IMG/VR virus record: IMGVR_UViG_3300005511_000015
Coordinates: 1 to 46,109 of that record
DNA from: a virus
Length of the DNA stretch: 46,109 bases
Reading direction: 5' to 3' (one strand)
A program made the translations under genes and the position numbers. Positions 35,939 through 39,278 of this stretch are shown here, one piece after another; position 1 is the stretch's first letter, and every line of letters starts with the position of its first letter. The notes under the pieces were generated by a model, which did no database searches, was not told where the DNA came from, and saw only the letters and a program-made list of their open reading frames with translations.

Positions 35939-36633
35939 CCGCATCAAACACGAGTTTTACCGCGCAGGGAGGGTCTGTTGTGCTGGGCCGCCTTCAGGGC
36001 GACGGTAAGGCCAGAGCTTGGATGCGAGCACACTTGGACTACCCCTACGTTGAATGGTGTCTAATATGGCCCTTCGCCCTGTCCAGGAATGGCTACGCTT
36101 ACTTCGACGGCGGTAGGATGGCCGCTCACCGCGTCATGTGTGAGCACGTCAATGGGACCCCGCCGACCCCGCAGCACCATGCGGCTCACTCCTGCGGAAA
36201 CGGCGCGAAGGGCTGCGTCAATCCTCGACACTTATCTTGGAAGACAGCATCTGAAAATCAGCAAGAACGCTGGCAGCAATCCGGGTCTCAGCCGAAGCGC
36301 AAGCTGACCTTGGAACAAGTCGATGAGATTAGAGCGCTACAGAACAAGCTTCCTGTTCTTGATATTGCAGCCCGTTTCAATGTTTCGGAGACGAACGTCC
36401 GAGATATCCACGCTGGCCGCCTTTGGCGAAAAGATCGGACAGACCAGCGGATATTCACGAGCGAAGAAATCATCCGCATTTGCAATTCGCCCTTTGGCGT
36501 AGTCGGCGTCGTCAACGGTCTGGCCAAAGAGTTTGGCGTCTCAACCGCCACTATCCATCGCATCCGTAATCGACAGTCTTACCAACACGTACAGCCTGCA
36601 GATCTTGTCCTCAAGAGCGAGGGCGGCAAATGA
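35935..36633 (+). CDS. HNH homing endonuclease with HTH repeats
   Basis: 232 aa from the ATG at 35935. Residues 40-110 form an HNH_3-type core: WCLIWPFALSRNGYAYFDGG, AHRVMCEHVNG, HAAHSCGNGAKGCVNPRHLSW. Two helix-turn-helix-type units follow (LTLEQVDEIRALQNKLPVLD with FNVSETNVRDIHAGRLW; FGVSTATIHRIRNRQSY). Free-standing homing endonucleases have this layout. It is probably a selfish insertion in the early operon, although its ends are neatly fused by ATGA overlaps. Confidence 0.85.
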   Translation: MTASNTSFTAQGGSVVLGRLQGDGKARAWMRAHLDYPYVEWCLIWPFALSRNGYAYFDGGRMAAHRVMCEHVNGTPPTPQHHAAHSCGNGAKGCVNPRHLSWKTASENQQERWQQSGSQPKRKLTLEQVDEIRALQNKLPVLDIAARFNVSETNVRDIHAGRLWRKDRTDQRIFTSEEIIRICNSPFGVVGVVNGLAKEFGVSTATIHRIRNRQSYQHVQPADLVLKSEGGK

Positions 36634-36813: not shown

Positions 36814-36945
36814 ATGTGCGGAGGATTTCCGAACAGCAAGACAGGTGAGCCGGCGCCCAGGATGACCATCTGGGAAGCGCTTATCGAAATTTGGCGGGGC
36901 GGACGCTGGTACGCGGACACGCGCCCACTCCGCGAGGGACAATGA
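36814..36945 (+). CDS. 43-residue hypothetical protein
   Basis: MCGGFPNSKTGEPAPRMTIW followed by EALIEIWRGGRWYADTRPL. Small and Trp/Arg-rich, it ends in an ATGA overlap with the methyltransferase gene. No known family. Confidence 0.5.
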   Translation: MCGGFPNSKTGEPAPRMTIWEALIEIWRGGRWYADTRPLREGQ

Positions 36946-37814
36946 AAGTAGTTGATCTATTTTCGGGTATCGGCGGCTTTTCCTTGGGTCTGGAAAAGGC
37001 CGGCATGGAGACGGTTGCGTTCTGCGAGATCAATGAATTTTGCCGAAGGGTTTTGAAAGAGCGATGGCCGAACGCATACAACTTCCAGGGCATCTATGCG
37101 CTGAACAGCTTGCTTCGCAGGGTCCGGAAACGGTCATCTCAGGCGGATTTCCGTGTCAAGATATCTCACTCGCTGGAGAAGGTGCCGGACTTGCCGGCGC
37201 CCGTTCTGGACTCGTCTGGCCTCTCCTACGAACCATTCGCATGGTACGACCATTCCGCGCGGTGCTGGAGAACGTGGCAGCGCTGCTTAGTCGAGGGTTG
37301 GACGCCGTACTCGGGCGCATGGCCGAGATCGGGTATGACGCGGAGTGGCATTGCATACCGGCGTCAGCCGTTGGTGCGCCTCACCAGCGCGACCGCATCT
37401 GGATCATTGCTACCGACGCCGGAAGCGACAAATACGAAGGCAATAGCGCTCCGCTCAGCGGGGAGATCGCCGCGCAACTTTCTATCGCCGCTGCCAACGC
37501 CGACCGTGAATGGCAATCACAATCGGAAGGGCCTGAGCAAGACGAGCGGGGATGGCCTGGCGACGTGGGTCAAGAAATGGCCGACGCCAGTAGCTCGAGA
37601 TTACAAGGGCCAAGGGATGTCGGTAGCCCGCCGAGAAGCTGGCAGACCGCCGGACAATTTGTGCTCGGCAGTGCTCTTGACGGACGGCAGTGGCTCACTG
37701 AACCCGCCGTGGGTCGAGTGGCTGATGGGGTTCCCAATCGGGTGGACCGATTGCGCACCCTCGGTAACGCCGTCGTCCCGCAAATCCCGGAAATCATCGG
37801 CAGGGCAATCATGA
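36942..37814 (+). CDS. Cytosine methyltransferase N-terminus fused in frame to a second known-looking domain (frame A)
   Basis: 290 aa. Residues 1-45 are C5-methyltransferase motif I (KVVDLFSGIGGFSLGLEKAG, then ETVAFCEINEFCRRVLKERW). After about residue 50 the methyltransferase continues in the other frame. This frame instead reads WTPYSGAWPRSGMTRSGIAY, SLLPTPEATN and LNPPWVEWLMGFPIGWTDCA. These strings are familiar from methyltransferase-associated phage proteins. Both frames are thus open for about 780 bases. Either this ORF is the expressed relic of a frameshifted gene or the locus is truly dual-coding. Confidence 0.55.
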   Translation: MKVVDLFSGIGGFSLGLEKAGMETVAFCEINEFCRRVLKERWPNAYNFQGIYALNSLLRRVRKRSSQADFRVKISHSLEKVPDLPAPVLDSSGLSYEPFAWYDHSARCWRTWQRCLVEGWTPYSGAWPRSGMTRSGIAYRRQPLVRLTSATASGSLLPTPEATNTKAIALRSAGRSPRNFLSPLPTPTVNGNHNRKGLSKTSGDGLATWVKKWPTPVARDYKGQGMSVARREAGRPPDNLCSAVLLTDGSGSLNPPWVEWLMGFPIGWTDCAPSVTPSSRKSRKSSAGQS

Positions 37815-37828
37815 GGGCCGCACAATGA
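37040..37828 (+). CDS. DNA cytosine-5 methyltransferase, catalytic and C-terminal part (frame B, frameshifted from its start)
   Basis: About 262 aa from a nominal TTG, though homology begins near 37095. It has ISGGFPCQDISLAGEGAGLA (motif IV with the catalytic Cys in PCQ), AVLENVAALL (motif VI), GAPHQRDRIWIIA (motif VIII) and RLRTLGNAVVPQIPEIIGRA (motif X). Motif I lies in the other frame at 36942, so full enzyme needs a -1 shift near 37095, where no slippery heptamer is seen. It would protect phage DNA from restriction if functional. Confidence 0.7.
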   Translation: MPKGFERAMAERIQLPGHLCAEQLASQGPETVISGGFPCQDISLAGEGAGLAGARSGLVWPLLRTIRMVRPFRAVLENVAALLSRGLDAVLGRMAEIGYDAEWHCIPASAVGAPHQRDRIWIIATDAGSDKYEGNSAPLSGEIAAQLSIAAANADREWQSQSEGPEQDERGWPGDVGQEMADASSSRLQGPRDVGSPPRSWQTAGQFVLGSALDGRQWLTEPAVGRVADGVPNRVDRLRTLGNAVVPQIPEIIGRAIMRAAQ

Positions 37829-38306: not shown

Positions 38307-38601
38307 GATTGATTGGAAGCCAGTGAGCGAGCGTCCCGAGTGGGATAACCAGCCGGGTCGGCAATTCATTCGGCTAGAGGGATCGCGCGATCATAGCGGC
38401 TTGAGCTGGGGGCGTATCCATTGCGGTCTGGCCTACATCCGCAAGCCAGGAGAGCCGGACGAGCTAAAGGGCTATCGGGAGATAGATATCCTGCAGCTAT
38501 GCGAAGACGGCGACATGGATTTGTGGAGTGCTGAAGTCACGCATTGGGCTCCGGCCTCATTCTCTGCGCCGGTTTCTTCTGGTGTCCGTGAGAGCAAATG
38601 A
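38299..38601 (+). CDS. Hypothetical protein (DUF551-like features)
   Basis: 100 aa from the ATG at 38299 (MAEIDWKPVSERPEWDNQPG). Trp-rich strands and a C-terminal part DMDLWSAEVTHWAPASF resemble short phage proteins ending in a THWxP motif, as in DUF551 proteins. Function is unknown. Confidence 0.55.
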   Translation: MAEIDWKPVSERPEWDNQPGRQFIRLEGSRDHSGLSWGRIHCGLAYIRKPGEPDELKGYREIDILQLCEDGDMDLWSAEVTHWAPASFSAPVSSGVRESK

Positions 38602-39278
38602 CAATGCACTATCACGGCACGCCCATTACTCCGATTACCGCGCTCTACGAGTTGGCGGGACGGAATTTCTGCGTGTCGTTCGCCCACCCTGCGGACGTAG
38701 CCCGCTGCCACCAAATCGGCCAGTCAGTCATGCTTGATAATGGCGCATTCTCAAAGTGGAAGTCCGGCAAGGACACGAACTGGGACGGCTTCTATGCCTG
38801 GTGCGACAAGTGGCTTGCCTACCCGACCACCTGGGCAATCATTCCGGACGTGATCGACGGCGGTTCGCAATTGCAAGACGCCATGATCCGGGAATGGCCG
38901 CATGGCGACCGCGGCGCTCCGGTCTGGCATATGGACGAACCGCTAAACCGCCTTCTACAGCTCACCGACAAATGGCCGAAGGTCTGCATCGGATCAACCG
39001 CAGAATATGCCGTTGTGCTCTCCGAGCCTTGGGAGCGTCGGATGGATGAGGCTTTCAACGAAGTCACCAAACGTCATTCGCGCCTGCCGTGGCTTCACAT
39101 GCTGCGCGGGATGCAATGCCTGGGGCTCCGCTGGCCGTTCGCGAGCGTCGATAGCACCGACATCGCCCAGAACCACCATCGACCACAGAACACGCCCCGC
39201 GGCATGGCTGACCGCTGGGACGCTATCCAGTGCAAGGCCGCGTGGGAACTGCGACCCGAGCAAATGGAGCTAGCATGA
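38598..39278 (+). CDS. TGT/DpdA-like TIM-barrel protein
   Basis: 226 aa. The pattern GRNFCVSFAHPADVARCHQI, GQSVMLDNGAFSKWKSGKDT, WAIIPDVIDGGSQLQ, PVWHMDEPLNRLLQL, GSTAEYA, and LHMLRGMQCLGLRWPFASVD is a phage protein family. I associate it with distant similarity to tRNA-guanine transglycosylase and DpdA. Those enzymes exchange a guanine base for a deazaguanine in tRNA or DNA. The TGT zinc site is not visible, so activity is uncertain. It overlaps a deoxyribosyltransferase-like gene by ATGA. Confidence 0.5.
   Translation: MTMHYHGTPITPITALYELAGRNFCVSFAHPADVARCHQIGQSVMLDNGAFSKWKSGKDTNWDGFYAWCDKWLAYPTTWAIIPDVIDGGSQLQDAMIREWPHGDRGAPVWHMDEPLNRLLQLTDKWPKVCIGSTAEYAVVLSEPWERRMDEAFNEVTKRHSRLPWLHMLRGMQCLGLRWPFASVDSTDIAQNHHRPQNTPRGMADRWDAIQCKAAWELRPEQMELA

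Follow-up and report, generated by a model that had tools for sequence, protein, structure and literature searches.

The methyltransferase locus described here is genuinely dual-coding, with two overlapping reading frames on the same strand, frame A and frame B, which are both under selection. It lies in a window of 46,109 nucleotides, i.e., the whole stretch of DNA analyzed, which is phage DNA as judged from matches to portal, terminase, Erf-like, and integrase proteins. We consider it probable that the locus specifies one C5-cytosine DNA methyltransferase made as two polypeptides from overlapping, +1-related frames, and that this enzyme would be an obligate heterodimer with the conserved motifs re-partitioned between the two chains. 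To our knowledge there are few cases of long same-strand dual coding with two recognizable protein families, and the support for them is mostly poor; in the open literature we found no paper on such dual coding in phages generally. The features of the locus are listed in Table 1.

Table 1. Features of the dual-coding methyltransferase locus (positions in the window)
Feature	Position	Strand	Remarks
Frame A ORF	36942..37814	+	ATG 36942, 290 aa; motif I–III segment and PHROG_1008 protein with motif IX
GAGGG, likely ribosome-binding site of frame A	36934..36938	+	from reading of the sequence
Motif I DLFSGIGGF, frame A	36954..36980	+	translation and PF00145
Frame B ORF, large chain	37040..37828	+	TTG 37040; likelier start ATG 37064
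Proposed frame B start codon ATG	37064..37066	+	A-ending Arg/Lys codon before TGG; presumed use
Motif IV GFPCQD (catalytic Cys), frame B	37145..37162	+	invariant in alignment A4
Frame A module WRTWQRCLVEGW...WPRSGM...AYRR	37194..37436	+	conserved; dual-coded with motifs IV–VIII
Motif VI ENV, frame B	37268..37276	+	translation and alignment
Motif VIII QRDRIW, frame B	37385..37402	+	translation and alignment
Motif IX LNPPWVEWLMGFPIGWT, frame A	37698..37748	+	hhalign; four-fold site identity 0.94 in canonical loci
Motif X GNAVVPQ, frame B	37763..37783	+	translation and alignment

Profile searches of both frames, as recommended in a preliminary description of this DNA, placed frame A in PHROG_1008 ("DNA methyltransferase"; residues 88–276, profile positions 62–286 of 329, 4.9e-26), the match extending over the conserved body of this family, and frame B in PF00145 (residues 32–131, profile positions 64–167, 4.4e-23), where it covers motifs IV–VIII. 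A further family, PHROG_363, covers parts of both proteins (frame A residues 1–55 and frame B residues 31–261, the latter with 7.5e-46). PF00145 also matches residues 1–46 of frame A, the motif I region (2.9e-9), and no other PF00145 match able to supply motif I is found elsewhere in the 46-kb record. The translations and the PF00145 matches agree with the preliminary assignment of motif I to frame A and of GFPCQD, ENV, QRDRIW, and GNAVVPQ to frame B, and the two stop codons are separated by 14 bases, as had also been reported. Frame B contains motifs IV, VI, VIII, and X and lacks motifs I and IX; taken together, the two chains have motifs I, IV, VI, VIII, and X and the catalytic PCQ of a C5-cytosine DNA methyltransferase. 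In these enzymes motif I binds the methyl donor S-adenosylmethionine. The AlphaFold2 model of frame B resembles M.HhaI (E 1.4e-8). The model of frame A is of low confidence past the N part (pLDDT 63, pTM 0.29), and with this low-confidence model no significant fold match was obtained in the PDB.

Neither Pfam nor NCBIfam holds a model for the frame A protein, as could be expected if frame A made no protein and merely shadowed a conserved methyltransferase in the +1 frame; Pfam also gave no match with the beta chains of phage isolates. For the best 80 viral loci retrieved with frame B the synonymous codons of frame B were shuffled within the locus (100 shuffles per locus). A homologue of the frame A protein is present in the +1 frame of B in 80/80 of these loci, and in every one of them the real +1 frame outscores all 100 synonymous shuffles; the loci include near-duplicates and hence are not 80 independent tests, the effect being uniform. 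Over the 80 loci the +1 frame contains 192 stop codons with 446 expected, and the −1 frame is flat (880 observed, 881 expected). In the window itself frame A has no stop codon over the overlap against a mean of 4.4, and 0.15% of 2000 B-synonymous shuffles are open. Frame A, which had been noticed to continue past the switch and to read LPTPEATN and LNPPWVEWLMGFPIGWT, is thus open beyond chance.

Identity at the four-fold degenerate sites of frame B was determined for 69 canonical relatives, i.e., homologous loci with motif I in frame with motifs IV–X. It is 0.30 in the single-coded N-terminal part, 0.52 over motifs IV–VIII, 0.94 at the overlap with motif IX of frame A, and 0.32 past the stop codon of frame A. 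In the clade to which the window belongs, codon-position conservation shows coding in frame A alone up to about codon 45 and constraint on both frames from there on. The shuffle test and the four-fold sites, together with the openness of the window, therefore show dual coding, which the preliminary description had put forward as one of two possibilities. The other one, a frameshifted gene in which the alternate frame had come to encode a protein, is not supported, as about 140 viral loci with an intact methyltransferase frame conserve the second frame as well. Results such as those of the shuffle and four-fold tests are impossible for a mere shadow and the constraint ends at the stop codon of frame A; we regard the shadow reading as refuted and leave it practically no chance.

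Frame A carries a motif IX-like element without counterpart in frame B. It is formed by the string LNPPWVEWLMGFPIGWT, which is dual-coded with TEPAVGRVADGVPNRVDRL of frame B and whose correspondence to motif IX of the C5-methyltransferases had been overlooked before. The frame A profile matches the respective motif of mycobacteriophage Shaka gp76 (E 4.9e-10, hhalign). Chains of the gp76 type hold motif IX and, behind it, a motif X of the form GN(G/S)V, and with a query devoid of conventional sequences they match motifs IX–X of conventional single-frame enzymes (E 2.3e-4). When the window family is compared directly with conventional enzymes it also lands on motif IX, weakly (P 0.05), and the link of frame A to the conventional motif IX rests on the intermediate gp76 family. 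Since the canonical large chains have no motif IX and LNPPWVEWLMGFPIGWT gives these profile matches, motif IX appears to be supplied by frame A. The conserved frame A module upstream (Table 1) has a +1 frame match in nearly all loci (hidden Markov model A5). The WPRSGM module and the LPTP repeats of frame A find no match in conventional enzymes; they may contribute to target recognition. In K1ind2, fTaEco01, Paenibacillus phage Jacopo, and mycobacteriophage Shaka, PHROG_1008 proteins of the beta type carry the annotation of a second methyltransferase, either nested in the first or next to it.

The frame A chain could also be real and yet independent, for example a regulator or an anti-restriction protein, its resemblance to motif IX being a relic of its origin. 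This would be compatible with a fold that is without confirmation and with a conserved WPRSGM module that resembles nothing known. However, the second chain nearly always lies over a methyltransferase lacking motif IX, the mycobacteriophage relatives have motifs IX and X on the same chain, and M.EcoHK31I provides a precedent, having motif IX alone on the small subunit and a large chain without motif IX (PMC3404938). An independent function of the frame A chain is in our view improbable.

A frame census of the viral loci found motif I in frame with motifs IV–X in 144 entries. The window-type arrangement, in which motif I shares the reading frame of the motif IX chain, occurs in the window and in the homologous loci labelled L002, L013, L016, L093, L100, L103, L118, and L121/L122, and also in one locus from a bacterial genome (L202). 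A pattern search at the DNA level for this type of junction returned only three contigs, all of them already in the set. In a tree of the IV–VIII region the window, L002, L013, and L016 form one clade (support 99/95), within which frame A identity is 55–78%. On this tree the window-type state requires 5 changes, at least three of which are forced by well-supported branches, the number being approximate due to the few columns. We see about even chances that in overlapping two-chain phage methyltransferases a mere change of frame has several times transferred the motif I segment, which binds the cofactor, from the catalytic chain to its partner, in which case neither chain would join motif I to the catalytic cysteine and the enzyme would work only as a pair.

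A single indel suffices to convert the canonical form to the window form, and one could suppose that a canonical two-frame gene has been broken by a frameshift mutation or a sequencing error, the large chain being dead or the shift artefactual. Yet both frames are still constrained in the window clade, as judged from codon-position conservation, and all four of its members, which are well diverged in frame A, have the arrangement in common. Its presence in four divergent contigs including the window therefore rules out a sequencing error, and likewise a recent break, and altogether a broken gene is very unlikely. Motif I on the frame A chain may instead be the working arrangement itself. Further peculiarities were seen in other loci: in L161, L259, and L234 a further indel shifts the frame of motif IX relative to the IV–VIII module, possibly reflecting re-fusions or decaying copies; in the large chains of L165 and L167 a segment like the post-motif-I region precedes motif I, i.e., the N-terminus is permuted; and upstream of the large chain of L108 (360–810) there is no recognizable motif I in any forward frame.

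How would frame B be made? An equivalent of its proposed start codon is present in all four members (4/4) of the window clade, where CGA or AAA precedes the TGG that encodes the W of "WP". Elsewhere the same codon position is His (CAT or CAC) in 106 of the 118 parsed canonical loci; as the new ATG belongs to one clade, it stands for one or two events, yet an ATG at this place is just what initiation inside the gene would require. The ribosome-binding site before this ATG is weak in 4/4 window-clade loci, and in L118, L121, and L093 the frame B ATG is preceded by a purine-rich stretch. In the window-type locus L103 (about 1504–2142) a frame B TAA stands directly before motif IV and there is no start codon ahead of motif IV; this locus could rely on frameshifting, be broken, or have been misassembled.

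According to the preliminary description a −1 shift, with no obvious slippery site, was required for a full enzyme. With dual coding being real, a programmed −1 frameshift near 37095 could join motif I to frame B and yield a full large chain, the unshifted frame A product being the small subunit. The frames overlap from 37040 on, which makes the shift geometrically possible, and in the canonical relatives motif I is continuous with motifs IV–X. A conserved zero-frame slippery heptamer, the mark of programmed −1 frameshifting, is however missing: no heptamer of the type X XXY YYZ is conserved in frame A of the window clade, in line with the earlier observation, and L013 and L016 have none even with relaxed criteria. 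Moreover, frame B stop codons lie between motifs I and IV in window-type loci of other origins (L103, L121), and most loci of this kind offer a start codon for frame B. A programmed frameshift is thus unlikely. Nor is the need for a shift demonstrated, as no heptamer is conserved, the arrangement is common to divergent contigs, and the frame B ATG arises with the rearrangement. We favor, as the more probable reading, internal initiation and two separate chains.

Lee, Kam and Shaw (1995) reportedly located the coding sequence of the M.EcoHK31I small chain within the large-chain gene, in a different frame. Compared by description, the window resembles M.EcoHK31I (YGGCCR) in having a small chain with motif IX in an overlapping frame. 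The large chain of M.EcoHK31I contains motifs I–VIII and X, a set present in the large chains of about 140 canonical relatives, whereas in the window and its clade motif I is found on the motif IX chain. Because motif I is not on the large chain, the window locus, although it would function in the manner of an EcoHK31I-type enzyme, is a variant and not a plain member of that type; the canonical relatives fit the EcoHK31I plan. ORF29/ORF28 of Escherichia phage K1ind2 and other Kagunavirus pairs ("Mte8-like", in the literature a gene name only, in one phage paper) are annotated nested pairs with the second ORF in +1, and their small chain is, as in the window, a PHROG_1008 protein ending in motif IX. 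They differ in that motif I is in the large chain, the N-terminal part is arranged differently, and a clear GGAG precedes the nested ATG of ORF28 inside ORF29, unlike in the window. Mycobacteriophage Shaka gp77/gp76 likewise consists of two polypeptides, the second one encoded in another frame and belonging to PHROG_1008. The small chain of M.AquI carries motifs IX and X. In splits of the Shaka and M.AquI type both motifs are on the small chain, whereas the window keeps motif X in frame B. In the Shaka locus (L082) the conserved frame A module is found at 1603–1761, upstream of the annotated gp76 start (1744); the annotated gp76, like its many relatives, is probably too short. ShiLan, too, has overlapping frames in a phage methylase, with an HNH endonuclease encoded out of frame (PMC11855218). 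There the endonuclease belongs to a homing insert, whereas the window has no insert and its second frame most probably encodes the partner of the methyltransferase itself.

In the mechanism we propose, frame B would be translated from its own internal start and provide the catalytic chain, and frame A would provide the small (beta) subunit, which has motif IX and probably the part that recognizes the target. Motifs I–III are joined, in the window and its clade, to the beta chain and not to the catalytic chain, so that only pairing of the two chains would complete both the cofactor pocket and the active site. We infer the two separate chains, their pairing, the internal start, and the catalytic activity from the sequences. 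The benefit is probably that the phage DNA would be protected from restriction by this orphan methyltransferase. Just upstream of the methyltransferase an HNH endonuclease is encoded at 35986–36633 on the plus strand (PHROG_59, 2.4e-24). Shortly downstream, at 38598–39278 on the same strand, there is a match to PHROG_887 ("queuine tRNA-ribosyltransferase", 1.5e-49); its product could be DpdA-like and take part in 7-deazaguanine DNA modification, and would then be a second DNA-protection gene.

Bacterial genomes often carry relatives as well, probably for the most part in prophages: 418 gave a match, and among the 80 loci retained 62 show the canonical dual coding. The reference annotation of the bacterial copies lists the large chain alone. 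In one locus on an Enterobacter plasmid (L185, 2739–3764) the gene table likewise has the large chain only, and the K1ind2 small chain matches the +1 frame with 45%. An "x2" annotation of an E. coli locus (L184) was traced to PGAP pseudogene pieces in a prophage and does not mark a restriction-modification system.

To sum up, the dual-coded pair occurs in hundreds of phages and prophages and bears a very strong signature at synonymous sites. As a rule the large chain alone is annotated, and the partner subunit is consequently missing from gene lists, Pfam, and NCBIfam; the annotated gene cloned alone would be expected to give an inactive enzyme. The window-type arrangement would offer a direct test case for whether a methyltransferase can divide its cofactor site between two overlapping chains.
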